The notes below the pieces were generated by a model. The model saw only the letters and a program-made list of their open reading frames with translations, did not search any database and had not been told where the DNA came from. From NCBI RefSeq assembly GCF_000517625.1, contig NZ_CP007056.1, positions 310,001 through 374,000 of the forward strand: a stretch of DNA of 64,000 nt, in the 5' to 3' direction. This DNA comes from Halostagnicola larsenii XH-48 (lineage in GTDB: Archaea; Halobacteriota; Halobacteria; Halobacteriales; Natrialbaceae). A program made the translations under genes and the position numbers. Of the stretch, positions 3,249 to 20,433 are shown piece after piece. Every line of letters begins with the position of its first letter. Positions within the stretch are counted from its first letter, which is position 1.

Positions 3249-4370
3249 TCATTCCATAACGTCGTCTATCTGTTCTGCGACGTCTTCGGGCTGAATATCG
3301 CTGTAGGCTTCGTGGGTCGTCTCGATTGACTTGTGGCGGAGCGCCGACTGTGCGAGTTCCGAGTTGCCGCTCGCGTAGAGTTCATGGCCGAGTCCGCGCC
3401 GACCGCCGTGGGGCTTTAGGTACTCGCCGTCGATCTCGAGGTTCGCCTCGTCACACAGTCGCTGCATCAGATTTCGCGCTCCGTTTTTCGAAATCGACGG
3501 CGGCGGAACCTCGAACTCGCGGAGGGCCTCGTCGATCGTCCGATCGGTGAGCAGCGTATCGACGCGATCCGACGAGAACTCGGCTTCGAGCGCGCGCCGT
3601 TTCGAGGGATAATGTCCCGTCGGGAATACCGGCCAGTCCGCTGTCGGCGGCTCGAGAACGGTTCGATACCGTTCCAGTGCATCCTTCGCGCGCGAGGGGA
3701 GTCCGACGCGTTCGTACTGCCGGGACTTTCCGAGAACCGTTACTCGCCCGTGGTCGTCCTGCAGTTCGACGTCTTCCCACGTGAGCCCGTCGCGACGGTC
3801 GTCGTGTGGATCCGCGAACGCTTCGGCCCCTCGAAGTCCGGCGAGGGCGAGCAACGTGACGAGCGCACGATCGCGATAGGCCCGCTCGAGGTCGATGTCG
3901 TCCTCGTCGTACGCCCGATCGACGCGCGTGTGGACGAACGAGAGGATCGCCTCTCGCATGTTTTCGTCCCAGAACTGTCGGTCGCGTTTGCCGGTGTCCT
4001 CGGGTAAAAACTCGCGTGCGGCGTCCGTCGCCGCGGGGTTCGTCTCGAGCAGTTGATCCCGAACGCAAAACGAGAGGAACGCGCGGGTGTACATGTAGTA
4101 GTTGTGCGCGGTCGATGCGGCGATTTCGTCCCGAGCGGTTCGGGTTCGAAGTTCCATTCCCCAGTCACGACAGCACGCGATGTCGATTTCGTCGACGCGT
4201 TCGACGCCGTTCGCCTCGAGATAGGTGCGAAACGACTGGTCGCCGGTCTGGAGAACCCACTCGAGGGTGTTTCGAGAGCCGCCCGCAGAGAGACTGGTGA
4301 GATACCGCTCGAGAGCGTCCTCGACGGACGTTCCCCCCGAGGAATCGCCGGTTCCGGATGCTGGAGTCAT
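3249..4370 (-). CDS. Tyrosine recombinase / integrase (XerC/D-like)
   Basis: 373 residues. An N-terminal SAM-like core-binding domain (about residues 20-120, with TLEWVLQTGDQSFRTYLEANG) precedes the catalytic domain. Visible catalytic elements are Arg in LAGLRGAEAF, the HGGRRGLGH box (H-x-x-R), LRHKSIETTHEAY (His, then the nucleophile Tyr). It would cut and rejoin DNA through a 3'-phosphotyrosine link, for integration or dimer resolution. It stands directly before the siderophore island and is transcribed away from it. A palindrome at 4412-4429 lies 42 bases upstream of its start. No tRNA gene or obvious attachment site is seen beside it. Confidence 0.9.
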   Translation of the reverse strand: MTPASGTGDSSGGTSVEDALERYLTSLSAGGSRNTLEWVLQTGDQSFRTYLEANGVERVDEIDIACCRDWGMELRTRTARDEIAASTAHNYYMYTRAFLSFCVRDQLLETNPAATDAAREFLPEDTGKRDRQFWDENMREAILSFVHTRVDRAYDEDDIDLERAYRDRALVTLLALAGLRGAEAFADPHDDRRDGLTWEDVELQDDHGRVTVLGKSRQYERVGLPSRAKDALERYRTVLEPPTADWPVFPTGHYPSKRRALEAEFSSDRVDTLLTDRTIDEALREFEVPPPSISKNGARNLMQRLCDEANLEIDGEYLKPHGGRRGLGHELYASGNSELAQSALRHKSIETTHEAYSDIQPEDVAEQIDDVME

Positions 4371-4662: not shown

Positions 4663-4678
4663 TTTAGGGGAGCCTAAA
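4663..4678. promoter_or_regulatory. Iron box (DtxR/IdeR-like operator) of binding protein 1
   Basis: TTTAGG-GGAG-CCTAAA, a perfect 6-bp inverted repeat with a 4-base centre, ending 3 bases before the ATG at 4682. A TATA-like cttttaaatt (4652-4661) lies about 26 bases before the ATG, so transcription probably starts at the ATG and the box lies between TATA and start, where a bound repressor would block it. Haloarchaeal DtxR-family regulators (Idr, SirR) recognise TTAGG-type palindromes; assignment to iron is inferred from the genes served. Confidence 0.75.
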
Positions 4679-4681: not shown

Positions 4682-5815
4682 ATGGGCAACGACACCTATC
4701 GAACGAGACGACAGCTACTCCGAACAACCGTAGCAGTTGCCGGTGCCGGGATGGTAGCCGGTTGCATAAGCGACGACGGAAACGGCGACGGGGATGGTGA
4801 CGGTGACGGATCGGGCGGGAGCTACGAAGTGACGATGGAGCCCGCCGGAACTCTCGAGTTCGACTCGGTTCCTGAGACCTGGGCCGCAAACAACGGAAGC
4901 TGGGCCGACATGGGTATCGCACTCGGTCAACAGCCCCCGGAAGCCGTCTACCTTACCGGTCGATATCACACGCAGCTGTACGACGAGATCCCCGGAGTGA
5001 GCGTCGATAAGAGCGATATGGATTCACTCTGGGAAGCCGAACTCGACACGGAGGATTTCATCGCACTCGGTGAGGACGTCGACATATTCGTCATGGATCC
5101 GAACTTCCTTCTCGGACGAAGTGACGCGTGGGAAGAGTCTGACATCGAGAAGATCGAAGCGACGGGAACGCCGTTTTTCGGAAACAGCATCTTCTCTCGA
5201 GGCTACGACTGGCACAATTACGAGTACCTGACCCTATACGAGGCATTCGGGAAATTAGCCGAAGTCTTTCAGGAAACGGATCGGTACGATGCGTTCGAGA
5301 CAGTCCACGAGGAGTTCCAAGCCGAACTCGAGGAGATCGTTCCGGCGGAGGACGAACGGCCGTCGGTCGCGATCATGTGGCCCCAACCGCTCGAGGAACC
5401 GACGTCGTTCTCCCCGTATCTCATCGACGAGGGAACGAGTTTCAAACAGTGGCGAGATCTCGGCGTCGAGGACGCCTTCGCGACGACGAACGTCGAGGAT
5501 TTCCACTCCAGCCGTACGGAGGTCGATTACGAGTTGCTGCACGAGATCGATCCCGACATCCTATTGATTCGAGGAAACGAGGCTAAAACGGCAGAAGAGT
5601 TCGACGACACCGTCGTCTCGTTCATGGAAAACCACAGCGTCGCCAGCTCGCTCACCGCGGTCGAAAACGGTGACGTCTACCGCGGTGGACCGCTGTACCA
5701 GGGGCCAATCACGAACCTCGTGCTCACGGAGCGCGCAGCGAATCAGGTGTACGATATCGACCGGGAACTGTTCGATCGCGAGCAGGTCAGCGACATCGTG
5801 AACGGCGATTTCTGA
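4682..5815 (+). CDS. Fe-siderophore-type ABC substrate-binding lipoprotein 1
   Basis: 377 residues. Tat signal with twin Arg (TRRQLLRTTVAVAGAGMVAGC) and a lipobox Cys at about residue 25, then a Gly/Asp linker and a class III periplasmic-binding fold (PF01497 type), ending with VENGDVYRGGPLYQGPITNL, the usual C-terminal lobe motif. It should catch ferric siderophore outside the membrane. It is strongly similar to the protein at 18093-19247 (both have SFSPY, KQWRDLGV, EIDPD, TAVENG), so the two are paralogues. It has its own iron box. No permease or ATPase gene for this type is in the window. Confidence 0.85.
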   Translation: MGNDTYRTRRQLLRTTVAVAGAGMVAGCISDDGNGDGDGDGDGSGGSYEVTMEPAGTLEFDSVPETWAANNGSWADMGIALGQQPPEAVYLTGRYHTQLYDEIPGVSVDKSDMDSLWEAELDTEDFIALGEDVDIFVMDPNFLLGRSDAWEESDIEKIEATGTPFFGNSIFSRGYDWHNYEYLTLYEAFGKLAEVFQETDRYDAFETVHEEFQAELEEIVPAEDERPSVAIMWPQPLEEPTSFSPYLIDEGTSFKQWRDLGVEDAFATTNVEDFHSSRTEVDYELLHEIDPDILLIRGNEAKTAEEFDDTVVSFMENHSVASSLTAVENGDVYRGGPLYQGPITNLVLTERAANQVYDIDRELFDREQVSDIVNGDF

Positions 5816-6084: not shown

Positions 6085-7647
6085 TCACTCACCCGTGGGT
6101 CGATCGCTGTCAGACATCCGCTCGAGTGGTTCCGTCCCTCCGAGCGAACCGCCGGGCGCGTTGCGGACGAACGACGCCGGCGAGAAATCCTGATAGACCG
6201 TGTCGGTGGGGATCGAATACGGCGACTCCTCGAGCAGTTGATCCAGGATGACGACGTTGCGATACGTTCCGAGTCCGAGGTCCGGAGTTCCGACGCCGTG
6301 GGTGTGCAATCCCGCGTTTTGGACGAACACGGTCCCGTCGAGATCCGTTTTGAGGGTGTACTCGCGAGTGATCTCGAGTCGTCCCCGATCGTCGCGGTGG
6401 ATGCGTTGGTCGATTCCATCCAAAAAGGGTGGCGTCGGCCGGTGATAGCCCGTTCCGAGAATAACGACCGACGGCTCGAAACTGAATGTCGTCTCCGATT
6501 GCCACTGCCTGCAGTCGAGCCGATACCGCCCCGCCTCGGTGCGATCGATATCTCTCACCTCGGTCATCGCGATCAGTCCGACATCCGGTCGATCGCCCCC
6601 GACCGACCGCCGGTAGAGTTCCTCGTAGATCTCGTCGCTAGTGTCGGGATCGATCCCCTTGTACAGGAGTTCCTGCTCGGGAATGAGGTCGTCTCGTACC
6701 GGTTGGGGGAGCTCGGTAACGTACTCGACGTACTCCGGTGCAAAGTGCTGGAGCCCCAGCTTCGAGTACTCCATCGGGAAGAACCCGTCCGAACGCGTCA
6801 CCCAATCGAGTCGGTACTCGTGGTTCGGTTGTCGCGCTAAGAGATCCTGAAAGACCTCGGCTGCGCTCTGGCCGGACCCGATCACGGCGATGGAGTCTAC
6901 GTCCAGCGCGTTCGATCTGTTGTACCGATATCGAGCAGTGTGAAACACCGAGTCGTCCGGGAATCCCCGGAACTCCGCCGGAACGAAGGGCTTGGAACCC
7001 ACTCCGACGACGAGATCGCGCGTCAGGTACGTGAATTGCTCGCGCTCGGTACCCCGTGCGGCGTCTACCGGTTCGTCGACACTGGTGGGTTCGGTTCGGT
7101 TGCCGCCAGCGACGTCCCGATCGGTTCCAGACACCACCTCGTCTTCGGCGGCGACGTCGTCCGGTCGAATCGCCGTCACCTGAAAGTTTGCTGTAGGGTG
7201 GTCGACGGGACGGACATCGATGACGCGACGCGAGAATCGCGGTGACTCGAGCCGTTCGGCTACCCAGCGACAGTACGCGTCGTACTCGCGACGCGGCGTT
7301 TGAAACGTCTCGTAGAAGTAAAACTCGTAGAGCCGATCCGTCTCCTCGAGGTAGTTCAAGTAACTGTAGGGACTCGTGGGATCGGCCAGCGTCACCACGT
7401 CCGCCAGAAACGGGACCTCCAACGTGGCGTCCTCGATGAGCATCCCCTCGTGCCAGGAGAACGACGGCTTCTGCTCGAGGAAGATCGCGTCGAGATCGAT
7501 CTCGTCGTGTCCCTCGATGAGGGCAGCTAACCCGAGATCGAACGGGCCGAGTCCGATTCCAACGATATCGTGAACGTCCTCGGCCCCGCCACTCTCCGTC
7601 CGTTCGGCCTCGGACGATCCGCCGGTGTGGTCACGATCGCTCGTCAC
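6085..7647 (-). CDS. iucD: Diamine N-hydroxylase (IucD/RhbE-like)
   Basis: 520 residues, flavin-dependent N-monooxygenase of the lysine/ornithine hydroxylase family. The FAD motif VGIGLGPFDLGLAAL is at about 29-43, the NADPH motif VIGSGQSAAEVF at about 255-266, and the family segment LGTGYHRPTPPFL is near residue 400. It would hydroxylate the primary amine of 1,3-diaminopropane before acylation, giving the hydroxamate. Family proteins are about 440 residues; the excess comes from an acidic N-terminal extension and an inserted acidic low-complexity loop at about 162-203. Last gene of the five-gene minus operon, overlapping its neighbour by ATGA. The region 5816-6084 downstream holds nothing recognisable. 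Confidence 0.88.
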   Translation of the reverse strand: MTSDRDHTGGSSEAERTESGGAEDVHDIVGIGLGPFDLGLAALIEGHDEIDLDAIFLEQKPSFSWHEGMLIEDATLEVPFLADVVTLADPTSPYSYLNYLEETDRLYEFYFYETFQTPRREYDAYCRWVAERLESPRFSRRVIDVRPVDHPTANFQVTAIRPDDVAAEDEVVSGTDRDVAGGNRTEPTSVDEPVDAARGTEREQFTYLTRDLVVGVGSKPFVPAEFRGFPDDSVFHTARYRYNRSNALDVDSIAVIGSGQSAAEVFQDLLARQPNHEYRLDWVTRSDGFFPMEYSKLGLQHFAPEYVEYVTELPQPVRDDLIPEQELLYKGIDPDTSDEIYEELYRRSVGGDRPDVGLIAMTEVRDIDRTEAGRYRLDCRQWQSETTFSFEPSVVILGTGYHRPTPPFLDGIDQRIHRDDRGRLEITREYTLKTDLDGTVFVQNAGLHTHGVGTPDLGLGTYRNVVILDQLLEESPYSIPTDTVYQDFSPASFVRNAPGGSLGGTEPLERMSDSDRPTGE

Positions 7648-8276
7648 AATCGGCCCACCTCACCGGTACCGCCGTTGACGGTGGGTCCGCCGGATCGCTC
7701 GAACGCCTCCCGGTCACACACCAGCAGCGCCGCGTCCTTGTCCTCGTGGGGGAAATAAAACGTGTCGCGCCGCTCGAACCCGACCGATTCGAAGGTTGCG
7801 ATGGCGGCTTCGTTTCCCGCGTCGGGTTCCGCGACGACGCGCTCGGTTCCGACGTGGCGAAAGGAGAGGTCGACTATTCCTCGCAGGAGGTGCGTCGCGT
7901 ACCCCTGTTGGAGGTACTCCTCGGGTCCGATCAGCAGGTGAACGCCCTGATCGCCGTCCCGAACGTCGTAGTGCTCGGCGAGCGGATCGTCCGCGGGCCA
8001 GTACCGCTCCCAGTAACTCATCGGAACGCCGTCGAGGCGGCCGACGTACGGCGTCAAGTGGTCGTCCGATAGCTTCTGCGCTATCGCCCGACGAAGCTCC
8101 GGGAGCGGTCCCGCCAGGTCCCAGTACGGGCGGACGTGGTCGGTACGAAACCACGCGTGAAGCCGCTCGAGGTCGCGGTTCAGTTCCACGGGGCGAAACG
8201 AGACGGTACGGTCGATTTCTTCGACCGAACGCCTGTACGCGCAGTCTTCGGTAATGAGATGAAACGGATCGGTCAT
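7644..8276 (-). CDS. iucB: Siderophore N-acyltransferase, GNAT (IucB/RhbD-like)
   Basis: 210 residues, AlcB/IucB-type GNAT fold. Typical motifs are LHAWFRTDHVRPYW near residue 40 and MSYWERYWPADDPL near 85, followed by LLIGPEEYLQQGYATHLLR (acyl-CoA pyrophosphate loop) and EPDAGNEAAIATFESVGFER. It would acetylate the hydroxylamine made by the adjacent hydroxylase using an acyl-CoA. Overlaps both neighbours by 4 bases (ATGA), so translation is probably coupled. The acyl chain length used cannot be read from sequence. Confidence 0.87.
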   Translation of the reverse strand: MTDPFHLITEDCAYRRSVEEIDRTVSFRPVELNRDLERLHAWFRTDHVRPYWDLAGPLPELRRAIAQKLSDDHLTPYVGRLDGVPMSYWERYWPADDPLAEHYDVRDGDQGVHLLIGPEEYLQQGYATHLLRGIVDLSFRHVGTERVVAEPDAGNEAAIATFESVGFERRDTFYFPHEDKDAALLVCDREAFERSGGPTVNGGTGEVGRL

Positions 8277-10060
8277 GTTCTGGTCACGATGGGGTTTTCG
8301 ATATCGACGTAGACGGACTGGTTTTCGAGCGATTCCTCGAGTTCGTCGAGTCCCCGAAAGCGCGTCAACAGGTTCCCCTTGCAGGGGATCTGTGACTCCG
8401 TCAGCGAAACGGAGACGAGCTCGGACGACGGCGGTTCAGACACACGAAGCGACTCGAGCGCCGACCGAAGATCATCCAACAGCGCCCGTTCGGGAGCGAG
8501 CCCGGCGACGCCGAGCGCGTTGACGACTCCGAAGGCGTTGTTACAGATGATGTAGTACCGCAGCCGCTCGTCGGCAACCGAGTCCGGACAGATCGTTCCC
8601 GCCCGGTCGCCGACTCCAGGAAGCCACGCATCGACCCGTTCGTAGCGAGATTCGGGGAAATAGTAGCCTTGATTATCACGATAGTAGCCTTCAGCGGGCC
8701 AACCCGCTTCGTTGAGACGGAGCAGCGTGTTCTGCTGGTGTGCCTCCATGCCGACGCCGAGCTCGAAATAGGTCCACAGGATCGGCCGAACGGTGACGGC
8801 GAGGTACTCGCGGAACCACTCGCGGGCGACCGCATCCTCGGGTCGGCCAGTTCGCTCCGCGATATCGCGCACGACTCGAGCGAGCCGGGACGGGCCGTCA
8901 ACGCCGTCCTGACAGAGAGCGACGACCGGCGAGACGTTCGCCGCGTCCGATCCGCGAAACGGGTTTTCTCGGAGGACGGTCTCGAATCCGGATTCCGGCC
9001 CCTCGCCGAGTTCGAGCGTCAACGCGGCGGGGTCTTCGACGACGCGGAACCGCGGCCACATCTCGTGAAGCCGGTCACCGAACTCCGTCTCGAGGAGGTC
9101 CGAGACGGCCACGCCGCGAGCCAGTTCGGGGCGTTTGTTCGTCCGCTCTGCGTTCGTGATCTCGACCGCGAGCGACCCTTTCACCATAAACGGAGCGTCC
9201 GGGCTCCACAGCGTTCGCACCGATGTCGTCGGATAGAAGGTTGGCCCGAACGTCCCCAGGTCGACCAGTTCGTCCGACGACAGCGCTACCTCAACGTGTT
9301 CTTGCGAACGGAGGTGATCGGCCTGCCATGGATGGGTCGGAACGAGAACCCGCCCCTCCTCCATGGCAGCGGTCGCCGCCGGCGGTCGATCGTCGGCAAG
9401 CGCCTGTTGAACCCACTCGCTCGCCGACCCGTCTCGAGCCGACCACTCCGTGACGATGGACGGATCGGCCGCGAAGTACCTGAGCTGGAACGATCCCGCT
9501 AGCTCGGGTGCGTACGTCGGAACGTCGTGAGGCGAAATCCCCTCGCGGCTTTTCGGAGTGGGATGCAGGAGATGCCCGTATAGCAGCGATTGTTCGGCGT
9601 CGCGGAACGTCGTTCCCGGTTCACAGAGCTGCGTTAGGTCGGAACGTTCGCCGACGAATCGTTCGATTGCCGCCCGCGAGACGAGGACACGACGAAGGAG
9701 ATCCGCCCCCGTCGAGGCGTTCTCGCCGTCGGCCGCAAGCGCCAGTTCACGGCAGACGAGCGCGGCGAGCGAACCGGCGTCCAGCGCGGCGAGTGCGTCG
9801 TCGCGGCCGCGGGTGTACACCGGGAGGTCGAACAGGTGTCTGCCCGTCGCCGACTCGTAGCGCAGCGGCGCGAACACCGTCATCCCCTGCTCGTCCAGCG
9901 AGAGACGGACGACGTCGCCCTCGCCGTCGACTGGCGACTCGTTCGCGGCGATAACGTCGCCGTCGTTCGTCTCTCTGAGATAGCAGTTGAGAAACGCGTG
10001 TACGGTCGCCGACTCCGCGTGCTCAGCGGGCGTCGAACAGCCGGCTCCAACCGTGGTCAT
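8273..10060 (-). CDS. iucA: NIS siderophore synthetase, IucA/IucC family (RhbC-like)
   Basis: 595 residues, NRPS-independent siderophore synthetase. Seen are VPTHPWQADHLRSQ (about 240), the adenylation-site segment TTSVRTLWSPDAPFMVKGSL, TNAERTNKR, and the FhuF-like C-terminal half with ELGVGMEAHQQNTLLRLNEAG. These enzymes activate a citrate carboxyl with ATP and join it to an amine or hydroxylamine. Together with the second synthetase at 15947-17914 it would attach two N-acyl-N-hydroxydiamine arms to citrate. ATGA overlaps with both neighbours. Confidence 0.9.
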   Translation of the reverse strand: MTTVGAGCSTPAEHAESATVHAFLNCYLRETNDGDVIAANESPVDGEGDVVRLSLDEQGMTVFAPLRYESATGRHLFDLPVYTRGRDDALAALDAGSLAALVCRELALAADGENASTGADLLRRVLVSRAAIERFVGERSDLTQLCEPGTTFRDAEQSLLYGHLLHPTPKSREGISPHDVPTYAPELAGSFQLRYFAADPSIVTEWSARDGSASEWVQQALADDRPPAATAAMEEGRVLVPTHPWQADHLRSQEHVEVALSSDELVDLGTFGPTFYPTTSVRTLWSPDAPFMVKGSLAVEITNAERTNKRPELARGVAVSDLLETEFGDRLHEMWPRFRVVEDPAALTLELGEGPESGFETVLRENPFRGSDAANVSPVVALCQDGVDGPSRLARVVRDIAERTGRPEDAVAREWFREYLAVTVRPILWTYFELGVGMEAHQQNTLLRLNEAGWPAEGYYRDNQGYYFPESRYERVDAWLPGVGDRAGTICPDSVADERLRYYIICNNAFGVVNALGVAGLAPERALLDDLRSALESLRVSEPPSSELVSVSLTESQIPCKGNLLTRFRGLDELEESLENQSVYVDIENPIVTRT

Positions 10061-11652
10061 CGCTCCACCCCGTCGGTCGAACCGCCAGCGTTTCCGCGCT
10101 CGGTTTCGACCGGCGCGGTTCCGAGCTCCGCCGCCTCGACGGTCGCGGCATGGCGTTGTCCCCGCTCGAGCAACGTCCGAATGTCGTCGACTGTCGTCCG
10201 AGGGTTCAAGAGCGTGAGTTTGAGCGTGACGCGGTCCTCGACCGTAGTGCGGGCGACGATTCCCTCACCTGCGTCGAACAAGAACTCACGAATCTCGCGG
10301 TTCAAGCGGTCGGACCACTCGCCATCGGCGAGTTCTGGATGGTCGTTAGACGGTTGGTACCGAAAGGTGACGACGTTCAGCGTCGGATCGCACACCAGTT
10401 CGTAGGCGTCGTCGGCGCGTACCAGCTCGGCGGTCCGGGTCGCGACCGACAGTGATCGATCGACCAGCGCCTCGAGCCCCTTGCGACCCACCGTCCGGAA
10501 GGCGATGTACGGTTTGAGCGCATCGAAGCGACGGGTCGTCAGCGTCGACTTCTCCACGCGATGCGGGGCGTCGTCGCCGTCGGGGTTGAGGTACGCCGCG
10601 TGACGAGCCATGAGGTCGAAGTCGTCACCCTCGCGCAGGAGAAACGCGCCGCAGGAGATGGGTTGGTAGAACAGCTTGTGAAAGTCGACCGAGAGCGAGT
10701 CCGCTCGTTCGATTCCGGCGATCGCCGATCGGTGTTCGTCACTGACGGCGAGCGCGCCGCCGTAAGCCGCGTCCACGTGGTACCAGAGGTCGTGCTCGGC
10801 CGCGATATCGGCGAGCTCCTCGAGCGGATCGATGCTCCCAAAGTCGGTCGTGCCCGCGGTGGCGAAGAGCGCGAACGGCCGCTCTCCGTTCCGTTTCATC
10901 CGTTCGAGTTGGGTTCGAAGCGCCTCCGGGTCCATTCGATACGTTCGATCCGTCGGCACCGAGACGACGGCGTCCTCTCCCAACCCGAGGTGGGCGGCTC
11001 CCTGGGCGGCCGTGAAGTGCGCGTGCTCCGAGCAGAGCACCCGCATGTCCGTCGCAGCCGGGGGGAGCCCGTTCGCTCGCGCCGACCGGTCGAACCGATC
11101 GGCGACGTAGCGATTGCGAGCGAGCAACAGCCCCTGGAAATTCGACTGCGTGCCGCCGCTGGTCATCACGCCGTCGGCGGCGTCGCCGAGCGAGAACAGG
11201 TCCGCGAGGTCGTCGATCACCCGTTCTTCGATCACGGTCGCTGCCGGCGCCTGATCGAAGGAGTCCATGGATTGGTTGACCGCCGTCAGCAACATCTCCG
11301 CGGCGAGTCCCGGCACCATCGGCGGACACTGGAGGTGGGCGACGCACGCTTCGTCCGACGGCACGACGGAGTTCGCGAGGACGTCGGTCGCGACCTCGTC
11401 GAGAACGACGGAAAGTGGCGCGCCGGTTTCGGGGATCGTCTCCCCGTCGAGGTGATCTCGAAGCGCTCGATACCCTCGTCCCGTGTACGGGTCGTCGGCC
11501 TCTCCAACTGTGGTTACGACTGCCTCTGCCGCTTGCTCTACCGCGCCGAGGTACGCTCGGTTTCCGTCATCGCTGCCCAAGAAGAGTCGGTCCGCGAGAG
11601 CGCGTCCGTTCGACGGTCGATCGTCGCTCGCGGGAGAATATTGCTCGGTCAT
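10057..11652 (-). CDS. ddc: L-2,4-diaminobutyrate decarboxylase (RhbB-like)
   Basis: 531 residues, group II PLP decarboxylase. The PLP Lys is in SLSVDFHKLFYQPISCG; before it come TSGGTQSNFQGLLLARN and HVDAAYGG, the latter carrying the Asp that holds the pyridine nitrogen. It converts L-2,4-diaminobutyrate to 1,3-diaminopropane. Its place between the aminotransferase and NIS genes is that of rhbB; the corresponding Haloferax gene is called bdb. It overlaps both neighbours by 4 bases. Confidence 0.9.
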   Translation of the reverse strand: MTEQYSPASDDRPSNGRALADRLFLGSDDGNRAYLGAVEQAAEAVVTTVGEADDPYTGRGYRALRDHLDGETIPETGAPLSVVLDEVATDVLANSVVPSDEACVAHLQCPPMVPGLAAEMLLTAVNQSMDSFDQAPAATVIEERVIDDLADLFSLGDAADGVMTSGGTQSNFQGLLLARNRYVADRFDRSARANGLPPAATDMRVLCSEHAHFTAAQGAAHLGLGEDAVVSVPTDRTYRMDPEALRTQLERMKRNGERPFALFATAGTTDFGSIDPLEELADIAAEHDLWYHVDAAYGGALAVSDEHRSAIAGIERADSLSVDFHKLFYQPISCGAFLLREGDDFDLMARHAAYLNPDGDDAPHRVEKSTLTTRRFDALKPYIAFRTVGRKGLEALVDRSLSVATRTAELVRADDAYELVCDPTLNVVTFRYQPSNDHPELADGEWSDRLNREIREFLFDAGEGIVARTTVEDRVTLKLTLLNPRTTVDDIRTLLERGQRHAATVEAAELGTAPVETERGNAGGSTDGVER

Positions 11653-13061
11653 CTTCCCCCCGCTGGCGTCACCGTCGCCTCGACAGCCTCGACGAATCGA
11701 GCGGCGATCTCATCGATCTGTTGGGGGGAGACGATAAGCGGCGGCAGGAAGCGGGCGACGGCGGAGTCGCGTCCGCCCGTCTCGATGATCAACCCCCGGT
11801 CGAAACAGGCCGCGGAGACGTCCGACGCGAGTTCGCCGTCGGGCGGGGGAACCTCTCCGTCGCCGACCGCCGTCGGATCGACGAACTCCACGCCGAGCAT
11901 TAACCCGCGCCCACGGACGTCTCCGATCTCCTCGAAGCGGTCGGCAAGTCGGTCCAACCGCTTTCGAAGCCGCATCCCCATTTCGGCCGCGTGATCGTCG
12001 AGATTATCGTCCAAAACGCGTCGCATCGTGACGCGTCCGGCCGCCATCGCGAGCTGATGGCCTCGAAAGGTTCCCGCGTGCGCGCCGGGTTCCCACTCGT
12101 CGAGCGATTCGTCGTAGATGACGACGGCGATCGGAAGCCCGCCGCCGATCGCCTTCGAGCAGGTGATCACGTCCGGAACGATCCCCGCGTGTTCGAACGC
12201 CCACGTCTCTCCGGTCCGCCCCATTCCGGTCTGGATCTCGTCGACGATGAGCGGAACGTCCGCCTCCCGCGTTATCCGGCGGACCTCACGGACCCACTCG
12301 TCCGGTGCGGGATTGACGCCACCCTCACCCTGAACGAGCTCGAGGATCATGCCGGCGGGACTCGCGACGCCACTTTCCGGGTCGGTGAGTACTCGCTCGA
12401 CGAAGTGACTGATCGATCTGTGATCCTCATCGAAACCGAACGGATGTCGATACTGGTCCGGGTAGGGAAGGTGGTGAACGTTCCCGCCCGTTCCCGCGAT
12501 CGACTCTTTCGCGCTCACGTCGCCCATGAGACCGAGGGCACCGCTCGTCATTCCATGGTACCCTCCTTGATACCCGAGAACGCTGTCGTTCCCGGTGGCG
12601 GTTTTGACGAGTTTAAGCGCCGCTTCGACGGCGTCCGTCCCGGCCGGCGAGCAGAACTGCACTTTCGCGCGCTCCGTGAACGCATCCGGGAGGCTCTCGA
12701 ACAGCGTGTCCACGAACGCCTCCTTCTCCGGCGTGGTGATGTCGAGGGTGTGAAGTGGTCGATCCTCTTCGAACAACCGCTCCAGTTCCTCGATCACGGC
12801 CGGATGGTTGTGACCAAGCGCGAGCGTTCCGGCACCAGCGAGACAGTCGAGGTACTCGTTCCCGTCGGCGTCGACGATCTCGAGTCCGTCGGCACTGGCG
12901 ATCGCGAACGGCAGCGACCGCGGATAGGTTCGGGCGTTTGACTCTCGGTCCGCCTGACTCGCTCGCAGTCTCGCATTTGACTGCTCCGCTCTCGGCGCTC
13001 GAGTAGTTGATCGGCTGATCGTTCTGCCAGTGCCGCCGTCGTTCGATTGATTCGGTGGCAT
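11649..13061 (-). CDS. dat: Diaminobutyrate--2-oxoglutarate aminotransferase (RhbA-like)
   Basis: 470 residues, class III PLP aminotransferase. The motif LIVDEIQTGMGRTG and the PLP Lys in ITCSKAIGGGLP are seen, plus FCSPAGTDAVEAALKL near residue 135. It makes L-2,4-diaminobutyrate from aspartate semialdehyde with glutamate as donor. First gene of the operon dat-ddc-iucA-iucB-iucD, with its own promoter carrying two iron boxes. The ATG at 13061 lies 4 bases from the nearer box, consistent with a leaderless mRNA. Confidence 0.9.
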   Translation of the reverse strand: MPPNQSNDGGTGRTISRSTTRAPRAEQSNARLRASQADRESNARTYPRSLPFAIASADGLEIVDADGNEYLDCLAGAGTLALGHNHPAVIEELERLFEEDRPLHTLDITTPEKEAFVDTLFESLPDAFTERAKVQFCSPAGTDAVEAALKLVKTATGNDSVLGYQGGYHGMTSGALGLMGDVSAKESIAGTGGNVHHLPYPDQYRHPFGFDEDHRSISHFVERVLTDPESGVASPAGMILELVQGEGGVNPAPDEWVREVRRITREADVPLIVDEIQTGMGRTGETWAFEHAGIVPDVITCSKAIGGGLPIAVVIYDESLDEWEPGAHAGTFRGHQLAMAAGRVTMRRVLDDNLDDHAAEMGMRLRKRLDRLADRFEEIGDVRGRGLMLGVEFVDPTAVGDGEVPPPDGELASDVSAACFDRGLIIETGGRDSAVARFLPPLIVSPQQIDEIAARFVEAVEATVTPAGGR

Positions 13062-13065: not shown

Positions 13066-13081
13066 TTTAGGTTAACCTAAA
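13066..13081. promoter_or_regulatory. Iron box proximal to dat
   Basis: TTTAGG-TTAA-CCTAAA, a fully symmetric 16-bp palindrome 4 bases upstream of the dat start on the minus strand. Its position, between a poor TATA-like tttttcaa and the ATG, is the same as for the other boxes of the island. Repression under iron-rich conditions is inferred. Confidence 0.75.
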
Positions 13082-13159: not shown

Positions 13160-14380
13160 TCAGCTTCCAACGACCGACGGAATACCGCCGTAGGTCGTGT
13201 AAAGTCCACCGGTGACGAGGGCACCCGCGATGATCGGAACGCAGGCGCTGAGCGCGTAGAGCGAGCCGAATCCGATCGCCTCCGCCAGCGGAAGCGACAC
13301 CAGCAACCCGACCGATGCGCCCAGATCGCCGAACGCGTTGTACGTTCCGGTTGCACGCCCCATCCGATCGCTTGCGGTCAAATCCCCCAGCATGGATACC
13401 AGCGGCCCTCCGACACCGCCCTGGCCGGCCCCCAGGAGGAGAACCGACGCGACAAGCACCGGCATCGTCGAGCCGAACGCGAGCAGGAAAACACCGACAG
13501 ACAAACAGCCTAGACAAGACAGGATCACCGGCAATCGGTGAGCGATGAGATCGCTCGCCTTTCCGCCCGCCACCGAAAACACTGACCCGGTGAGGACGCT
13601 GAGACCGATCAGGACGCCGGAGGTACCCTGGGCCCCGATCGTGACCGTTCCGGCGTTTATCACATCGAGAAAGGAGACCAGCGTCGCGAACACGACGCCG
13701 TTGTAGGTGAACAAAAGCGCGAAGTTGGCCCCGCCAGCGATCAACACCGGCGGGCTGAAATCGAGGTTTCCGAGCCCGACGTTCGTCGATCGATCGGCGC
13801 CGTGAGTTTCCGGAATCGCAACCGCGGTTAACAGACACGCCAGTACCGAGAGCGCGGACGCAACCCCGAAGGCGGTGCCAGCGCCGTACACTTCGCCGAC
13901 GATGCCGCCGATGGCCATCCCGGCCGGGAATCCCATCGACGTCCCGCCTCGGACGATGCTCATCGTCTGCCCGCGCGACTCCGGATCGCAGACGTCGGCG
14001 GCGATCGTGTACGCCGCCGCGAGAACGAACGCGCTACCCAGACCCCACAGCACCCGTGCCCCCGTGAACCAGAGAGCGGGGCGTCCGCTCTCGAGGGCGA
14101 TCAGGTACCCGAGCGTGGCGATCGTCTCGAGTCCGACGCCGACGACGAACGGTTTCCGGGTTCCGATCCTGTCGACGACCACTCCCACGGGCGCGTTCGC
14201 GAGGAGCCGCACGATACGATTGGCGCTCAGGATGATCCCGACGACGAACGGAGCGATACCTACGACGGCCCCGAGGTTCGGGAGGATCGGGAAGACGACG
14301 CCGCCGCCAAACCCGAGGAAGAACGTGCTAAGGAGAACCGCGATCACTGCGCTCGGTACGCCGAATCCCCGCGTCCACAT
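13160..14380 (-). CDS. MFS transporter in siderophore locus
   Basis: 406 residues, about 12 hydrophobic helices. The A-like motif between helices 2 and 3 reads NAPVGVVVDRIGTRKP, marking the major facilitator superfamily. It follows the glutamine-synthetase-like gene with a single base between stop and start, so the two form an operon under the iron box at 15745-15760. It may export the finished siderophore, the usual role of MFS proteins in NIS clusters; an RhtX-like importer role is the alternative. Confidence 0.85.
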   Translation of the reverse strand: MWTRGFGVPSAVIAVLLSTFFLGFGGGVVFPILPNLGAVVGIAPFVVGIILSANRIVRLLANAPVGVVVDRIGTRKPFVVGVGLETIATLGYLIALESGRPALWFTGARVLWGLGSAFVLAAAYTIAADVCDPESRGQTMSIVRGGTSMGFPAGMAIGGIVGEVYGAGTAFGVASALSVLACLLTAVAIPETHGADRSTNVGLGNLDFSPPVLIAGGANFALLFTYNGVVFATLVSFLDVINAGTVTIGAQGTSGVLIGLSVLTGSVFSVAGGKASDLIAHRLPVILSCLGCLSVGVFLLAFGSTMPVLVASVLLLGAGQGGVGGPLVSMLGDLTASDRMGRATGTYNAFGDLGASVGLLVSLPLAEAIGFGSLYALSACVPIIAGALVTGGLYTTYGGIPSVVGS

Positions 14381-14381: not shown

Positions 14382-15722
14382 TCAGTACACGCTCCGAAGG
14401 CGATCGCGTTCCCAGGCGCCGGCGCTGTCGGTGAACTGATCCCAGTGACTCCGCTTGACCTGAAGGTAGGTTTCGAACAGTTCGTCCCCGAGCGCCTCGC
14501 GTAGCACTCGATCGGATTCGAATTCCTCGAGCGCCGCGCCGAGCGTCCTCGGCAGCCGTTCGACCGCTCGCTCCTCGAGTTCGCCGTCGGAGAGCGTCGC
14601 CGGGTCGACGGCGACGGGTTCCGGCGGGGCGATCTCGCGGTCGATTCCGTCGTATCCCGCCGCGAGTATTCCGAGCAGCGCGAGGTAGGGATTCGCCGTA
14701 CAATCGGCCGCCCTGAACTCGATCCGGGTCGCCGTCGCCGGGTCGGAGCCGCCGACTGCGGGGACGCGCACGAGCGCCTCGCGGTTTCCGTGACCCCAAC
14801 AAGCGAATCCGGTTGCGCCGAGTTGGGGGCGAAGCCGGGCGTAGGAGTTGGCTGTCGGCGCCGTCAGCGCCGTCAGCGCGTGTGCATGCGTTAAAACGCC
14901 GCCGATAAAGTGACGAGCGGTCGGGCTCAAGCCGCCGGATTCGCCAGTGTAGAACCGGTTGGCGTCGTCCCACAGCGACAGGTGAATGTGACAGCCGTTC
15001 GTCGAGTGCTCGAACGGTTTCGGGAGAAATGTCGACCCGTAGCCGTGGTCGCGGGCGATGGCGTTGACGGTTTCACGCAAGAGGACGTGTTCGTCGGCCG
15101 AACGGACTCCGGCGGCTCGACCAGTGACGATTTCATGTTTGCCGGCCGCGTACTCCGGGTAGTATTTTTCGACAGGGATGTCTTGGCTCTTCAACGAATC
15201 GATCATCGATAGGATCACTCCGTGGGTTTCTCGCGTGCTCTCGGTGGCGTAGGCACCACGCTCGTCGACCCGATGGACGGTCCCTTCGTCGTCAGTCTCG
15301 AACAGGTGAAACTCGCTCTCGAACGCGGCTTCAGGCGAGAGGCCCTCCCGCTCCATTTTCCGAACGAACGCTCGCAGCGACGATCTCGGGTCGACGGTCC
15401 AGGGCTCTCCGTCCACGGTCTCGATGTCACAGAGCATCGCGCCGGTGCACTCGGCGTAGGGCAGTTCGCGAAACGTCCCGGGATCCGGGCGGAGCCGCAC
15501 CTCACCGGCCGCGTCGAACCGCCCGTTCTTGTCGCGAATCCCGAGTGCGTTGTACGTCTGGACGAGTTGCGAGAGCGTCACCCCGTCTTCGATCGCGGAC
15601 TCGACTTTCGACGCGTCGACCGCATGAGTCCGCACGACCCCGCTCTGAGTAACGAACAACAATCGCACGAGCTGGCAGTCTCCGTTCCGACACCGATCGA
15701 CCGCGGTTGATTCTGTCGTCAT
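14382..15722 (-). CDS. Glutamine synthetase family protein in siderophore locus
   Basis: 446 residues, complete GS fold. A beta-grasp start (VRLLFVTQSGVVRTHAVDA) is followed by metal-site Glu in FESEFHLF (about 134-141) and GKHEIV (195-200), then NGCHIHLSLW (242-251), NSYARLRPQ (292-300) and RIEFRAADCTANPYLALLG (333-351). Housekeeping GlnA has GSGMH where this has TNGCH, so it is probably a gamma-glutamyl or other amide ligase on a different amine, as in PuuA-type enzymes. It is co-transcribed with the MFS gene and iron-boxed, so a role in siderophore making or diaminopropane handling is inferred. Confidence 0.85.
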   Translation of the reverse strand: MTTESTAVDRCRNGDCQLVRLLFVTQSGVVRTHAVDASKVESAIEDGVTLSQLVQTYNALGIRDKNGRFDAAGEVRLRPDPGTFRELPYAECTGAMLCDIETVDGEPWTVDPRSSLRAFVRKMEREGLSPEAAFESEFHLFETDDEGTVHRVDERGAYATESTRETHGVILSMIDSLKSQDIPVEKYYPEYAAGKHEIVTGRAAGVRSADEHVLLRETVNAIARDHGYGSTFLPKPFEHSTNGCHIHLSLWDDANRFYTGESGGLSPTARHFIGGVLTHAHALTALTAPTANSYARLRPQLGATGFACWGHGNREALVRVPAVGGSDPATATRIEFRAADCTANPYLALLGILAAGYDGIDREIAPPEPVAVDPATLSDGELEERAVERLPRTLGAALEEFESDRVLREALGDELFETYLQVKRSHWDQFTDSAGAWERDRLRSVY

Positions 15723-15744: not shown

Positions 15745-15760
15745 TTTAGGCAGACCTAAA
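15745..15760. promoter_or_regulatory. Iron box of GS-like/MFS operon
   Basis: TTTAGG-CAGA-CCTAAA (plus strand), perfect 6-bp arms. It lies 22 bases before the GS-like ATG. A TATA-like gttaattt lies on its far side for minus-strand transcription. An out-of-frame ATG at 15741 lies 3 bases from the box, at the spacing seen for real starts at other boxes. Confidence 0.7.
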
Positions 15761-15856: not shown

Positions 15857-15872
15857 TTTAGGTCAGCCTAAA
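15857..15872. promoter_or_regulatory. Iron box of second NIS synthetase
   Basis: TTTAGG-TCAG-CCTAAA, preceded by the TATA-like ctttttattt (15847-15856). It ends 3 bases before an ATG at 15876 that opens a 24-codon leader ORF, and 74 bases before the likely start of the synthetase. Confidence 0.75.
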
Positions 15873-15875: not shown

Positions 15876-15950
15876 ATGCACGGATCGACGTGCCGATCGA
15901 TGGTACCACCGACAGACCGAGTTCACCTAATCGAGGGCGTTCATCGATGA
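15876..15950 (+). CDS. Putative 24-residue leader ORF, coupled to iucC
   Basis: ATG at 15876 opens MHGSTCRSMVPPTDRVHLIE and four more residues, then stops at 15948-15950 overlapping the synthetase ATG (15947) as ATGA. Its ATG is 3 bases after the iron box and about 26 after the TATA element, exactly where leaderless genes in this island start. The mRNA probably begins at this ATG, and the synthetase would be read by termination-reinitiation. Peptide expression is inferred, not shown. Confidence 0.45.
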   Translation: MHGSTCRSMVPPTDRVHLIEGVHR

Positions 15951-17914
15951 ACGCCGCCGACGCGCTCGAGTCAGCACTCGAGCCCGAAATCTGGAGGGAC
16001 GTTAATCGCGACCTGTTTCGAAAGGTCCTCGCGGAATTCATGTACGAGGAGATACTCACTCCGGCTCGGATCGGAACCGTTAGCGCCTCGGAAACGGCGA
16101 CGACCGATGCAACTCCGGGAGCCGACGGGACTGTCGTTCCCGAAGCGAAATCGGAACCGGAATCCAGCGCGGAGCTGCCCTCGTCCGAGAATCAGGAACG
16201 CGATACCTGGATCCGCTACAGGCTCCTGTTGACCGACGGGATCGAATACCAGTTCGACGCCCAACGTCGCCCGCTCGATTCGTATCGAATCAAACCGGGG
16301 TCGATAGAGCGCCGCGAGCGGGGCGAACAATGGCGCTCGGCGACGAGTCCGGTGACGTTCCTTCGGGAGGCCCGCGAGTACATTGGAATCGATCCGACCA
16401 CCGCGGCCCATCTCGTTCGGGAGTACAACAACACGCTCGTGGCGGACGCTCACATCCGGGCGAGAAAAGAGGATCGAGACGATGCCACGCTACTGGATCT
16501 GTCGTACGCGGAACTCGAGGGAGAGATGGAGGGACATCCCTGGTTCACTTACAACAAGGGCCGCGTGGGATTCGGGTACGAGGCGTATCTCGAACACGCC
16601 CCCGAATCCAAGCAGCGGCGGCAACTCCGATGGATCGCCGCGCGCCGAGACCGCGCAACCTTTCAAGCCGTGGACGGACTCGAGCACGACGCGCTCGTAG
16701 AAGAAGAACTCGGAAGCACTGCAACCGAGTTCGCGGACGCATTACTCGATCGGGATCTAGATCCCGCCAACTACGTGTTCCTCCCGGTCCACGACTGGCA
16801 GTGGTCGGACAGCATCGTCCAACTGTTCGCGGCGGACATCGCGACCGACGCGATCGTGCCGCTCGGGCGGGGCCCTGACGAGTACCTGCCACAGCAGTCG
16901 ATTCGAACGTTCTCGAACGTTTCGGCGCCCGAAAAACACCACGTCAAGCTACCGACTCGCGTGTTGAACACCAACGTGTACCGCGGCATCCTCGGCGAAC
17001 AGGCCGAGGCCGCCCCGCGCGTGACGTCGTTCCTCAAATCGGTCCGCGACGGGGATACCTTCCTCCAGGACGAACTGCAACTCCTACTGCCCGGCGAGGT
17101 CGCGAGCGTCAACTACGAACACCCGACGTTTTCGCGGATGGAAGAGGCACCCTACCAGTTCCACGAACTGCTCGGATGCGTCTGGCGAGAGAGCGTCGTC
17201 TCGCTGGTCGACGACGACGAGCGACCGATCACGCTCGCCGCGCTCCTCCACGAGGACTTCGACGGGACGCCGGTCGTCTCGAAGCTAGCCGACCGCGCGG
17301 ACATGAGCGTCGGAGCGTGGCTAGACGAACTGCTCGAGGTGTTGCTCGAGCCGCTTCTTCACTTCCTGTACAAGTACGGGACGGTGTTCATGCCCCACGG
17401 GACGAACGTCGTGTTGATCCTTCGCGACGGCGTTCCCACCCGCATCGCCATCACGGACTTCGTGGACGAAGTCGCGATCTCGGATCGTGATCTGCCGGAG
17501 CTATCGGAACGGCTTCCCGATGCGCTGCGCGACGACGACCGGTACGATCACCACATTCTCCACCAACTGCCGCCGGAGCCGCTGTGTCAACACATCGTCG
17601 GGACGCTTTTCGTGGGTGTCTTTCGCTACATCGCGGACCTACTGGCTCGTCATCGAGGCTACGACGAACGACAGTTCTGGACGCAGGTCCGGTCGGCCGT
17701 CGATACCTATCAGGCGCGGTTTCCGGACCTCGAGGAGCGATTCGACCTGTTCGATCTCTACAAGCCGCGGTTCACCAAGCACTGTCTGAACCGCAACCGT
17801 CTCGTCGACTACGGGTATAAGGACTTTAGCACGCGACCGAAAGTGCGCGGCCACGGGACCGTTTCGAACCCGCTCTACGAGGTGGCCGACGACTCTGCGA
17901 CGGGAGCTGACTGA
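15947..17914 (+). CDS. iucC: NIS siderophore synthetase, IucA/IucC family (RhbF-like)
   Basis: 655 residues from ATG 15947; an in-frame GTG at 15890 would add 19 poorly conserved residues. IucC-type motifs: LPVHDWQWSD (about 276), QQSIRTFSN, HHVKLPTRVLNTNVYRG, and KYGTVFMPHGTNVV with TDFVDE in the C-terminal half. It would join the second hydroxamate arm to the citrate intermediate. Divergent from the rest of the cluster, which is also how it differs from the single-strand rhb operon. An acidic insert at about 46-78 (after ASETA) lengthens the N-terminal domain. Confidence 0.9.
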   Translation: MNAADALESALEPEIWRDVNRDLFRKVLAEFMYEEILTPARIGTVSASETATTDATPGADGTVVPEAKSEPESSAELPSSENQERDTWIRYRLLLTDGIEYQFDAQRRPLDSYRIKPGSIERRERGEQWRSATSPVTFLREAREYIGIDPTTAAHLVREYNNTLVADAHIRARKEDRDDATLLDLSYAELEGEMEGHPWFTYNKGRVGFGYEAYLEHAPESKQRRQLRWIAARRDRATFQAVDGLEHDALVEEELGSTATEFADALLDRDLDPANYVFLPVHDWQWSDSIVQLFAADIATDAIVPLGRGPDEYLPQQSIRTFSNVSAPEKHHVKLPTRVLNTNVYRGILGEQAEAAPRVTSFLKSVRDGDTFLQDELQLLLPGEVASVNYEHPTFSRMEEAPYQFHELLGCVWRESVVSLVDDDERPITLAALLHEDFDGTPVVSKLADRADMSVGAWLDELLEVLLEPLLHFLYKYGTVFMPHGTNVVLILRDGVPTRIAITDFVDEVAISDRDLPELSERLPDALRDDDRYDHHILHQLPPEPLCQHIVGTLFVGVFRYIADLLARHRGYDERQFWTQVRSAVDTYQARFPDLEERFDLFDLYKPRFTKHCLNRNRLVDYGYKDFSTRPKVRGHGTVSNPLYEVADDSATGAD

Positions 17915-18072: not shown

Positions 18073-18088
18073 TTTAGGGGTGCCTAAA
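18073..18088. promoter_or_regulatory. Proximal iron box of binding protein 2
   Basis: TTTAGG-GGTG-CCTAAA, perfect arms, ending 4 bases before the ATG at 18093. With the distal box it should control the two binding-protein genes as one unit. Confidence 0.75.
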
Positions 18089-18092: not shown

Positions 18093-19247
18093 ATGGCGAG
18101 AGAAAATACGAAAGACGTAGCACCGACCCGACGGGACTGCATGCGGTACGGTGGGACAATCGCTGCCGGTGGATTACTCGCTGGCTGTCTCAGCGGTGAA
18201 GATGGTCCGGGAACGGACTCGACTGAGAACGGTAACGGCTACACCGTCTCGATGGAACCGGTCGGTGAGGTTTCCTTCGGAGAGGTCCCGGAGCGGTGGG
18301 TAGCGTACGATGGCGGCTACGCCGACATGGCGGTCGCACTGGGGCAGGCCGACGGCCTGATGGGCATCGGAAGCGCGGATCGGTACTATACGTACGTGTA
18401 CGACGAACTTCCGGGAGTCGACGTCGATCAGAGCGTTCTCGAGGAGTATCCAGAAGTGCAGACGAAAGAGGAGTTCTACGAACTCGAGGCTGACGTCCAC
18501 CTGTACGATCCGGAGATGCTCATCAACTGGTTCGACTGGGACGACAACGACGTCGACGAGATCGCCCAAACCGTTGGCCCGTTCTACGGGAACCTGATCT
18601 TCCGTCGATCCGACGACTGGCACGACTACGAGTACTATACGCTCTATGAAGCCTTCGAGAAGGTTGCAAATGCGTTCCAACAGACCGATAGGTTCGAGGC
18701 GTTCGAACAGTTCCACGACGAGTTCATCGACTCGATCCAAAGTCGGCTCCCACTAGCGGAAGACCGGCCCGACGTGTTTCTCACCTTCGAGGGCACCGAG
18801 GAACCCGAGACGTTCTCCCCGTACCGGCTCAATGACGACGGAACCAGCAAAAAACAGTGGCGCGACCTCGGCGTGACGGACGCGCTCGCAGGTACGGATA
18901 TCGACAACCTCAGCACGACGAATCGTGGCGAGTTGGACTACGAGAATCTCCTCGAGATCGATCCGGACGTGCTCCTCGTTCGCGGCCACGAACGAAAATC
19001 GCCCGCGGAGTTCCGAGACGTCGTCCTCGCCTACATGGAGGACCATCCGGTAGGGAGCGAACTGACGGCCGTCGAGAACGGCCAGGTGTATCGCGGGGGC
19101 TATCTGCACCAGGGGCCGATACACAACCTGTTTCTGACCGAACGAGCCGCGAAGCAACTCTACCCCGACGAATTCGGTGCGGTAACCGACGATACGGAAC
19201 TGTTCGATCGACAACGGGTCGCGGATATCATCAACGGTGAATTCTGA
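18093..19247 (+). CDS. Fe-siderophore-type ABC substrate-binding lipoprotein 2
   Basis: 384 residues. Tat/lipoprotein signal TRRDCMRYGGTIAAGGLLAGC, then a class III binding-protein fold with SFGEVPERWVAYDGGYADMAVALGQ-like start and C-terminal VENGQVYRGGYLHQGPIHNLF. Paralogue of the protein at 4682-5815. It should present ferric siderophore to an ABC permease that is not encoded here. One base separates it from the third binding protein, so they are co-transcribed from the double iron-box promoter. Confidence 0.86.
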   Translation: MARENTKDVAPTRRDCMRYGGTIAAGGLLAGCLSGEDGPGTDSTENGNGYTVSMEPVGEVSFGEVPERWVAYDGGYADMAVALGQADGLMGIGSADRYYTYVYDELPGVDVDQSVLEEYPEVQTKEEFYELEADVHLYDPEMLINWFDWDDNDVDEIAQTVGPFYGNLIFRRSDDWHDYEYYTLYEAFEKVANAFQQTDRFEAFEQFHDEFIDSIQSRLPLAEDRPDVFLTFEGTEEPETFSPYRLNDDGTSKKQWRDLGVTDALAGTDIDNLSTTNRGELDYENLLEIDPDVLLVRGHERKSPAEFRDVVLAYMEDHPVGSELTAVENGQVYRGGYLHQGPIHNLFLTERAAKQLYPDEFGAVTDDTELFDRQRVADIINGEF

Positions 19248-19248
19248 C

Positions 19249-20433
19249 ATGCCAGCACAAAAGGAGACGGACGCGACCGAAGAACCGACGCGTCGAGACT
19301 ACATGCGATACGGTGGGACGATCGTCGGCGGCGGATTACTCGCCGGTTGTCTGGGAGACGGCGATACCTCGCCCGACACAAACACCGCCGAGGGCTACAC
19401 AGCGACGATAGCACCGGTCGGTGAGGTCACCTTCGACGCACCGCCTAAGTCGATTTTTACCCGACTGACACACCTCGCCGGGATGGCCTTCGCGCTCGGA
19501 CGGGGAAACGACGTCAACGCGATGCACGCACCGGACTACTACGACGCGCTGTGGAACCAGTTCACGCCGCACCTCGAGGGCGTGTCGCTGGATTGGACCG
19601 GCCTGTATTCATCCTGGGAACCGGACAAAGAGCAACTCTACGAACTAAATAGCGATGTCCACCTGGCAGATCCCGCGAGCATGTTCGCGCTCGGGAGCTG
19701 GGATATGGACGATATCGAGGAGATCGCTACCAACATCGGCCCGTGGTTCGGGAACACGTTCAGCGATCGAAACGAGGCCCCGCCGGACGAGTGGGCCGAT
19801 CAGTACCAGTACTACACGCTCTGGGAGCAATTCGAACGGGTCGCACAGGTATTCCGTGCGGAAGAACGGTATCAGGCACTCTCGGAGATCCACACTGACC
19901 TGCTCGAGACTATCGAGTCGGGACTGCCACCGGCTGCTGATCGACCGACCGCAGTACTGGTCGGCATGAGCGATATCGAGAGTATCTACGCCTACACGTT
20001 GAACACTCCTGGATTCCTGACGGCCCACCTCCGACCGCTCGAGCCGGTCGGCGCGTTCGGTGATGAGGTCTCATCCGGCGATACGGTCGACATGGAGGCG
20101 ATGCTGGAAGCGGATCCCGACGTCATCTTCTCGATGGGTGGGATGCACCCGGAGACCGATATGGTCGCGATCCGGGAGAACCTCACCGATCACTCGGTCG
20201 CTCGAGAGATCTCTGCTGTAGAGAATGATCGCGTGTACGCACAGGGCGCACGATATCAGGGGCCGATTTTGAACCTCTTCCAACTCGAAATGACGGCAAA
20301 ACAGCTCTATCCCGACCAATTTGGTACGTGGCCGACCTACGAAACGGGACCCTACCCGGAGATTCCCGTGGACGAACGATTGTTCGATCGCGGGCGGGTA
20401 GCCGACATCGTGAACGGGAATTTCGAGCGATGA
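19249..20433 (+). CDS. Fe-siderophore-type ABC substrate-binding lipoprotein 3
   Basis: 394 residues from ATG 19249. The signal TRRDYMRYGGTIVGGGLLAGC is nearly the same as in protein 2, but the mature part is more divergent (FTRLTHLAGMAFALGRGNDV, YYTLWEQFERVAQVFRAEERY, VENDRVYAQGARYQGPILNLF). It probably arose by duplication and then drifted towards another ligand form. Same operon as protein 2. Confidence 0.85.
   Translation: MPAQKETDATEEPTRRDYMRYGGTIVGGGLLAGCLGDGDTSPDTNTAEGYTATIAPVGEVTFDAPPKSIFTRLTHLAGMAFALGRGNDVNAMHAPDYYDALWNQFTPHLEGVSLDWTGLYSSWEPDKEQLYELNSDVHLADPASMFALGSWDMDDIEEIATNIGPWFGNTFSDRNEAPPDEWADQYQYYTLWEQFERVAQVFRAEERYQALSEIHTDLLETIESGLPPAADRPTAVLVGMSDIESIYAYTLNTPGFLTAHLRPLEPVGAFGDEVSSGDTVDMEAMLEADPDVIFSMGGMHPETDMVAIRENLTDHSVAREISAVENDRVYAQGARYQGPILNLFQLEMTAKQLYPDQFGTWPTYETGPYPEIPVDERLFDRGRVADIVNGNFER

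Follow-up and report, generated by a model that had tools for sequence, protein, structure and literature searches.

A GlnA2-type member of the glutamine synthetase family, predicted to be iron-controlled, tracks one subfamily of IucC-type synthetases in haloarchaeal siderophore loci

A 64 kb window of the Halostagnicola larsenii XH-48 genome (the window being the whole stretch of DNA analyzed, 64,000 nucleotides) carries, at 14382-15722 on the minus strand, a gene for a member of the glutamine synthetase (GS) family that is, judged from its residues, not a glutamine synthetase. The gene sits in an NIS siderophore locus, and in a sample of haloarchaeal genomes its close relatives occur together with IucC-type synthetases, evolving in step with one subfamily of them, termed IucC-prime below. 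We give an even chance to the reading that the protein is a GlnA2-type, ATP-dependent glutamate-diamine ligase that is made at low iron and feeds siderophore assembly through IucC-prime. This function would apparently be unreported for a known enzyme family, and a GS-family ligase would add a new type of step to the well-studied NIS class of pathways.

The open reading frame is intact, starts with ATG and encodes 446 amino acids with the Pfam domains Gln-synt_C (332 residues matched) and Gln-synt_N_2, which bears out the description of a complete GS-family enzyme in an earlier sequence-only reading of this DNA. The protein reaches 721 bits (model positions 2-438 of 438) against NF045547, the NCBI equivalog model for GlnA2, gamma-glutamylputrescine synthetase, whose curated cut-off is 650 bits, and it fails the GlnA equivalog TIGR00653 with 283.4 bits against a cut-off of 429.15. 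Its ammonium site is gone (D50S, Y179A and E327G in Salmonella GS numbering). The source genome has only two GS-family genes, and the second, a GlnA-type gene on contig C1 with 34% identity to the window protein, retains the ammonium-site D, Y and E. A housekeeping GS, which the sequence-only reading had also set aside, was rejected on the scores, the residues and this identity. The metal ligands E129, E131, E212, E220, H269 and E357 are retained, as are the arginines R321, R339, R344, R355 and R359; the pattern is that of NF045547, in which metal and glutamate residues are kept and Y179 is replaced by a small residue. The motif TNGCHIH, which stands in place of (N)GSGMHxH, had been singled out as a departure from the GSGMHVH of GlnA; the difference is real, but it is a feature of the GlnA2 family and not of this locus. 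Nor is the enzyme of an unknown kind: NCBI models it as GlnA2, relatives bear the name glnA2, gamma-glutamylputrescine synthetase, in RefSeq plasmid records, and one relative from a haloarchaeon has been assayed (PMC8394153). The prediction that best fits the model match, the residues and the tree is probably that of a ligase joining glutamate to a diamine. The proposal that glutamate or another carboxylate is joined to a diamine thus holds in its first part; the retained glutamate-contacting residues E131, H269, R321 and R359 make citrate or a different carboxylate a less likely substrate.

Members of this family over or near the NF045547 cut-off were found in 35 of 391 genomes drawn evenly across the class; a contig-set scan gave only five close loci, and a whole-genome search was more productive. 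Their tree splits into two clades, one of 28 genes in siderophore or iron-transport loci (support 100/98) and one of 14 genes outside such loci (15 with L101). This split of the family in haloarchaea is new here. The siderophore clade, present in 23 of the 391 genomes, is what a search for the same subfamily beside siderophore genes, suggested earlier, has yielded; most of its members share the TNGCHIH motif, and the window gene lies inside an 18-gene clade with genes of the GlnA-2 type (support 100/99). The second clade looks catabolic from its neighbors, which in several cases are genes for an M20 hydrolase, an amidohydrolase, an amino acid permease and an aminotransferase. Five of its loci (L070, L093, L102, L178 and L181) hold these genes with a DUF6885 protein, an apparently undescribed cluster for amine or amino acid catabolism to which the same model gives the name gamma-glutamylputrescine synthetase. 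The automatic name is therefore suggested to hide two clades with different roles.

The surroundings of the window gene were correctly read as a siderophore locus, combining IucA- and IucC-type synthetases with genes for amine supply and modification. One nucleotide past the GS stop codon begins a gene for an MFS transporter (13160-14380, minus; PF07690), presumed to be an exporter, and this GS-MFS pair recurs in L068/L003, L071/L004 and L006. Behind it, all on the minus strand, follow dat (11649-13061; diaminobutyrate--2-oxoglutarate transaminase, TIGR00709 over cut-off), ddc (10057-11652; PF00282), iucA (8273-10060; an IucA-type NIS synthetase, PF04183 and PF06276), iucB (7644-8276; an IucB-type GNAT N-acetyltransferase, PF13523) and iucD (6085-7647; an IucD-type N-hydroxylase, PF13434). 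The ddc product, an L-2,4-diaminobutyrate decarboxylase that gives 1,3-diaminopropane, has DABADecarRhbB as its best model, at 424 bits and under the cut-off of that model. Divergent from the GS gene across 167 nt lies iucC (15890-17914, plus; its start may be the ATG at 15947), encoding an IucC-type NIS synthetase (PF04183 and PF06276) that the IucC tree places in the GS-linked subfamily. Both NIS synthetases of the source genome reside in this locus. Around it are three siderophore-type substrate-binding proteins (PF01497, all on the plus strand), one of the siderophore/iron ABC type at 18093-19247, a second at 19237-20433 and a third at 4682-5815; the first and third have iron boxes, at 18074-18087 and 4664-4677. 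Two further features were observed here. The window IucD has an acidic, linker-like insertion of some 30 residues at about residues 163-200, where its relatives align in two pieces, and a phage-integrase-family gene at 3249-4370 adjoins the locus, in keeping with a mobile island.

Iron control of the window GS is well supported as a prediction from iron boxes and from a transcriptional parallel in Haloferax mediterranei. Boxes of the DtxR type were sought as the palindrome TTAGGN4CCTAA, with the reversed pattern as control. The perfect box TTAGGCAGACCTAA (15746-15759) lies 24 nt upstream of the GS start, TTAGGTCAGCCTAA (15858-15871) lies in front of the divergent iucC, and the perfect box TTAGGTTAACCTAA (13067-13080) precedes dat. 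All five perfect boxes of the window fall in the siderophore locus, where 0.04 would be expected in 64 kb from base composition; genome-wide (4.13 Mb) there are 18 against about 2.3 expected, and the control pattern occurs once. Another eight perfect boxes crowd into 19 kb about 30 kb beyond the window end (G000:C2:403385-422183), probably a second iron-uptake locus. The MFS gene has no box of its own in front of it, which agrees with the claim that it shares the iron-box promoter of the GS gene. A single promoter for the whole cluster was rejected: with a box of its own in front of dat, the genes dat-iucD probably form one iron-regulated unit and GS-MFS another, each driven separately. Among the relatives, a perfect box stands upstream of 25 of the 28 siderophore-clade GS genes or their operons (the exceptions are L080, L092 and L095), where the assignment to an operon is interpretive for L079_9, L082, L084, L087_7, L091_10 and L100, whose first gene encodes a binding protein or a GNAT protein, versus 0 of the 14 genes of the other clade. 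In H. mediterranei RNA-seq under denitrifying conditions, which is not an iron titration, GlnA3 (log2 -5.37), a neighboring iron-binding SBP (-4.25) and GlnA2 (-4.05) fall together with siderophore genes, which are down by log2 6.0 to 7.1 (PMC11218638). What glnA2/glnA3 do was unclear to the authors, who suggested that SirR might repress the iron genes (PMC11218638). From this joint fall and the boxes of the relatives we infer that glnA2/glnA3 and their relatives belong to the iron regulon, a point that the paper itself does not make (PMC11218638).

The GS gene is tied to IucC-type synthetases. These occur in 86 of the 391 genomes, and the siderophore-clade GS in 23 of those 86 versus none of the other 305 (Fisher p 5.7e-17, a value that is optimistic because the sampled genomes are related). 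The 23 genomes span five families (f1, f3, f4, f6 and f7), and in 20 of them no more than about 10 kb separates the GS gene from an IucA or IucC gene; in G183 the synthetases lie elsewhere, and the GS genes are accompanied by genes for a binding protein and a MATE transporter. The association is strongest with IucC-prime, a subfamily of 19 genes with support 100 in the IucC tree: the GS is found in 16 of 20 genomes with IucC-prime versus 7 of 66 without. Pairwise distances of GS and IucC-prime correlate with r = 0.94 over 17 loci, and in the 12 of them where IucA is present too, GS follows IucC (r 0.96) more closely than IucA (r 0.78). The two genes apparently moved together between families, since the locus of a same-genus relative (L075) clusters with family f3 loci in both trees. 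The partnership is not obligatory. IucC-prime can work without the GS, as four genomes (G209, G241, G307 and G266) have it and no GS. The statement that related NIS loci need no GS is upheld by the 63 of 86 IucC-bearing genomes without the siderophore-clade gene and by the H. volcanii operon (PMC7407949); because that operon and the four IucC-prime genomes do without it, the GS is not universally needed.

The loci that contain the GS gene vary in composition. A full hydroxamate set accompanies it in the window, L071, L005, L081, L087 and L091. In L072-L074 the GS occurs with dat, ddc, iucA, IucC, a third NIS synthetase and an ABC exporter and with no iucB or iucD; L075 is similar, with a distant IucD relative elsewhere in its genome. 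L089, L096 and L097 have GS, dat and NIS synthetases and no ddc. In L068, L006, L092 and L095 a divergent iucC-GS pair, with or without MFS, has no other iuc genes nearby; at least three of these genomes have iucA with dat and ddc elsewhere. Searched genome-wide, IucD is absent from eight GS-bearing genomes (G189, G190, G204, G212, G250, G253, G263 and G379) and a ddc match from three (G189, G190 and G212). By comparison, iucD is present in 14 of 14 sampled NIS loci without the siderophore-clade GS (absence in 8 of 23 versus 0 of 14, p 0.015), as is ddc. Because the GS occurs without iucD and without ddc, it has no fixed link to hydroxamate chemistry, and its link to diaminopropane is not strict either.

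Three gene sets in these loci deserve mention in their own right. The third NIS synthetase (L072:1602-3626, also L069, L073, L074, L075 and L089) is divergent and forms a six-gene clade with support 98; its loci have a fused ABC exporter in most cases and lack IucB and IucD in nearly all, probably constituting a non-hydroxamate haloarchaeal siderophore cluster. A cassette of amidase, GNAT, GS, MOSC protein and HpcH/HpaI aldolase genes adjoins iuc genes in L180 (8538-14143; Haloferax larsenii pHl5678-2), L082 and L084. In nine loci (L072:15482-16225 and relatives) the siderophore GS has an RraA-like aldolase-family gene nearby, which might provide an unusual hydroxy acid.

How the enzyme would act can be outlined from its family and its neighbors. 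Low iron would lift a DtxR-family repressor, and GS and MFS would be made together. The GS, its amine ligase activity inferred from the relative assayed in the literature, would activate the gamma-carboxylate of glutamate and couple it to a primary amine bulkier than a true GS accepts; the simplest candidates are 1,3-diaminopropane and 2,4-diaminobutyrate, made by the neighboring ddc and dat. The gamma-glutamyl-diamine would then most likely serve the partner synthetase of the IucC-prime subfamily as a building block or a blocked intermediate, and the product would leave through the coupled MFS transporter. Against a part in assembly stands the complete hydroxamate route in the window, which in principle needs no GS. 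So do the four genomes with IucC-prime and no GS, the distance between GS genes and synthetases in G183, and the assignment of the only assayed relative to putrescine catabolism.

The main rival is diamine homeostasis, which we regard as rather unlikely. Under it, dat and ddc overload the iron-starved cell with diaminopropane, and the GS renders the excess, or diamine recovered from siderophore breakdown, harmless by capping it with a gamma-glutamyl group; the capped compound adds nothing to the siderophore and may be exported by the MFS or MATE transporter. This accords with the putrescine ligase activity of GlnA-2 and the growth of H. mediterranei on putrescine (PMC8394153), with a bacterial relative that aids survival at toxic polyamine levels (PMC8998196), with the transporter gene directly after the GS gene and with the catabolic-looking neighbors of the sister clade. 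However, ddc is present in all 14 sampled siderophore loci without the GS, so a surplus does not demand the enzyme, and three genomes have the GS with no ddc match; a PuuD homologue is also missing. Since the GS gene follows the IucC subfamily and not ddc, and the PuuD step is lacking, a role in assembly is the most likely, though only modestly ahead of disposal.

It is improbable that the glutamyl unit is a protecting group, with the GS blocking one amine of diaminopropane while IucD and IucB modify the other and a later hydrolase removes the glutamate. In its favor, the iuc cluster of Haloferax larsenii and its kin contains, next to the GS, a GNAT acetyltransferase gene and an amidase gene in divergent orientation, but eight genomes have the GS without iucD, most iucD-bearing loci have no GS, and no amidase lies near the window gene. 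Least probable of all is an ordinary catabolic GS for polyamine nitrogen that reached the locus by accident and acquired its iron box there. This fits the NF045547 family name and the literature role of GlnA-2 (PMC8394153) and is contradicted by the strict nesting of the GS in IucC-bearing genomes (p about 6e-17), the iron boxes conserved upstream of 25 of the 28 genes or their operons and the apparent joint movement of GS and IucC-prime between families (L075 and the f3 loci).

If the assembly reading is right, an iron-controlled GS evolving in step with one synthetase across many haloarchaea points to a step that has gone unrecognized in how archaea acquire iron. The findings also offer an explanation for the published puzzle that the H. 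mediterranei genes glnA2 and glnA3 fall with the siderophore genes. A further step, which we put forward tentatively and somewhat short of an even chance, is that the GS supplies gamma-glutamyl-diamine to a dedicated IucC-type synthetase for undescribed glutamate-bearing archaeal siderophores, including non-hydroxamate ones made without IucD; on that view the H. mediterranei GlnA-2 and GlnA-3 would serve iron acquisition rather than putrescine catabolism. Both the role and the two-clade question are testable in genetically tractable Haloferax species.

Several known systems invite comparison. In the staphyloferrin B, achromobactin and vibrioferrin pathways, NIS synthetases use citrate together with diamino acids or amino alcohols to make carboxylate siderophores, and the vibrioferrin pathway has one extra amide ligase outside the NIS family, PvsA; we know of no GS-family ligase in any of the three. 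The relatives with three NIS synthetases and no hydroxylase resemble these pathways in outline only. A literature search returned no paper on GS in NIS siderophore clusters, and a wider one yielded nothing relevant beyond the H. mediterranei and Streptomyces papers; the literature covered contains no archaeal siderophore structure, the schizokinen of H. volcanii being a prediction.

The bacterial gamma-glutamylpolyamine synthetases (E. coli PuuA, Streptomyces GlnA2/GlnA3 and PauA7) share with the window protein the GS fold, the lost ammonium site and the gamma-glutamyl amide chemistry expected of it. Its identity to PuuA is only 26%, and in contrast to these enzymes its context is iron and not polyamine or nitrogen metabolism. 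A PuuA-style catabolic operon around the gene was rejected: the window has no puuB/C/D-like neighbors of the GS, and the PuuD family (PF07722, E 1e-15), whose gamma-glutamyl-GABA hydrolase activity Puu-type catabolism requires for its completion, is absent from the source genome and from 33 of the 35 GS-bearing genomes.

The schizokinen-type operon of H. volcanii (HVO_B0041-B0046) has dat, ddc, iucA, iucB, iucD and iucC in common with the window and is iron-regulated, as the window locus is predicted to be. It consists of six genes and no GS (PMC7407949), and a control search of H. volcanii gave no GS match over the cut-off. The window locus differs in adding the GS-MFS pair and in an IucC subfamily unlike most haloarchaeal ones.

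The closest assayed relative of the window protein, by tree and residues, is GlnA-2 of H. mediterranei (HFX_1688 / E6P09_11460), which showed glutamate-putrescine ligase activity only (PMC8394153). It was assigned to putrescine catabolism in an organism that grows on putrescine (PMC8394153), and a glnA-2 mutant was affected in growth on nitrogen. Reported for GlnA-2 are Y179 changed to Ala, D50 and E327 missing, and C375 at the adenylylation position. Apparent orthologues in the sample (L079_7, L087_8 and L091_9) were matched by these residues (A179, and exactly C375 in L079_7) and by gene order, which in L079 runs MATE, GS, binding protein, GS, as in the published GlnA-2/GlnA-3 layout. The settings of the two genes differ. 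In H. mediterranei, GlnA-2 is grouped with GlnA-3 and with MATE and binding-protein genes at a distance from the iuc operon; the window gene has iuc genes on both sides, is coupled to an MFS gene and diverges from the gene of an IucC-type synthetase. The window protein falls in the same 18-gene clade as the three orthologues, with which it shares 56-59% identity, and like GlnA-2 it has Y179A, no D50 or E327 and the TNGCH motif, with an iron box upstream in the L079, L087 and L091 relatives as well.
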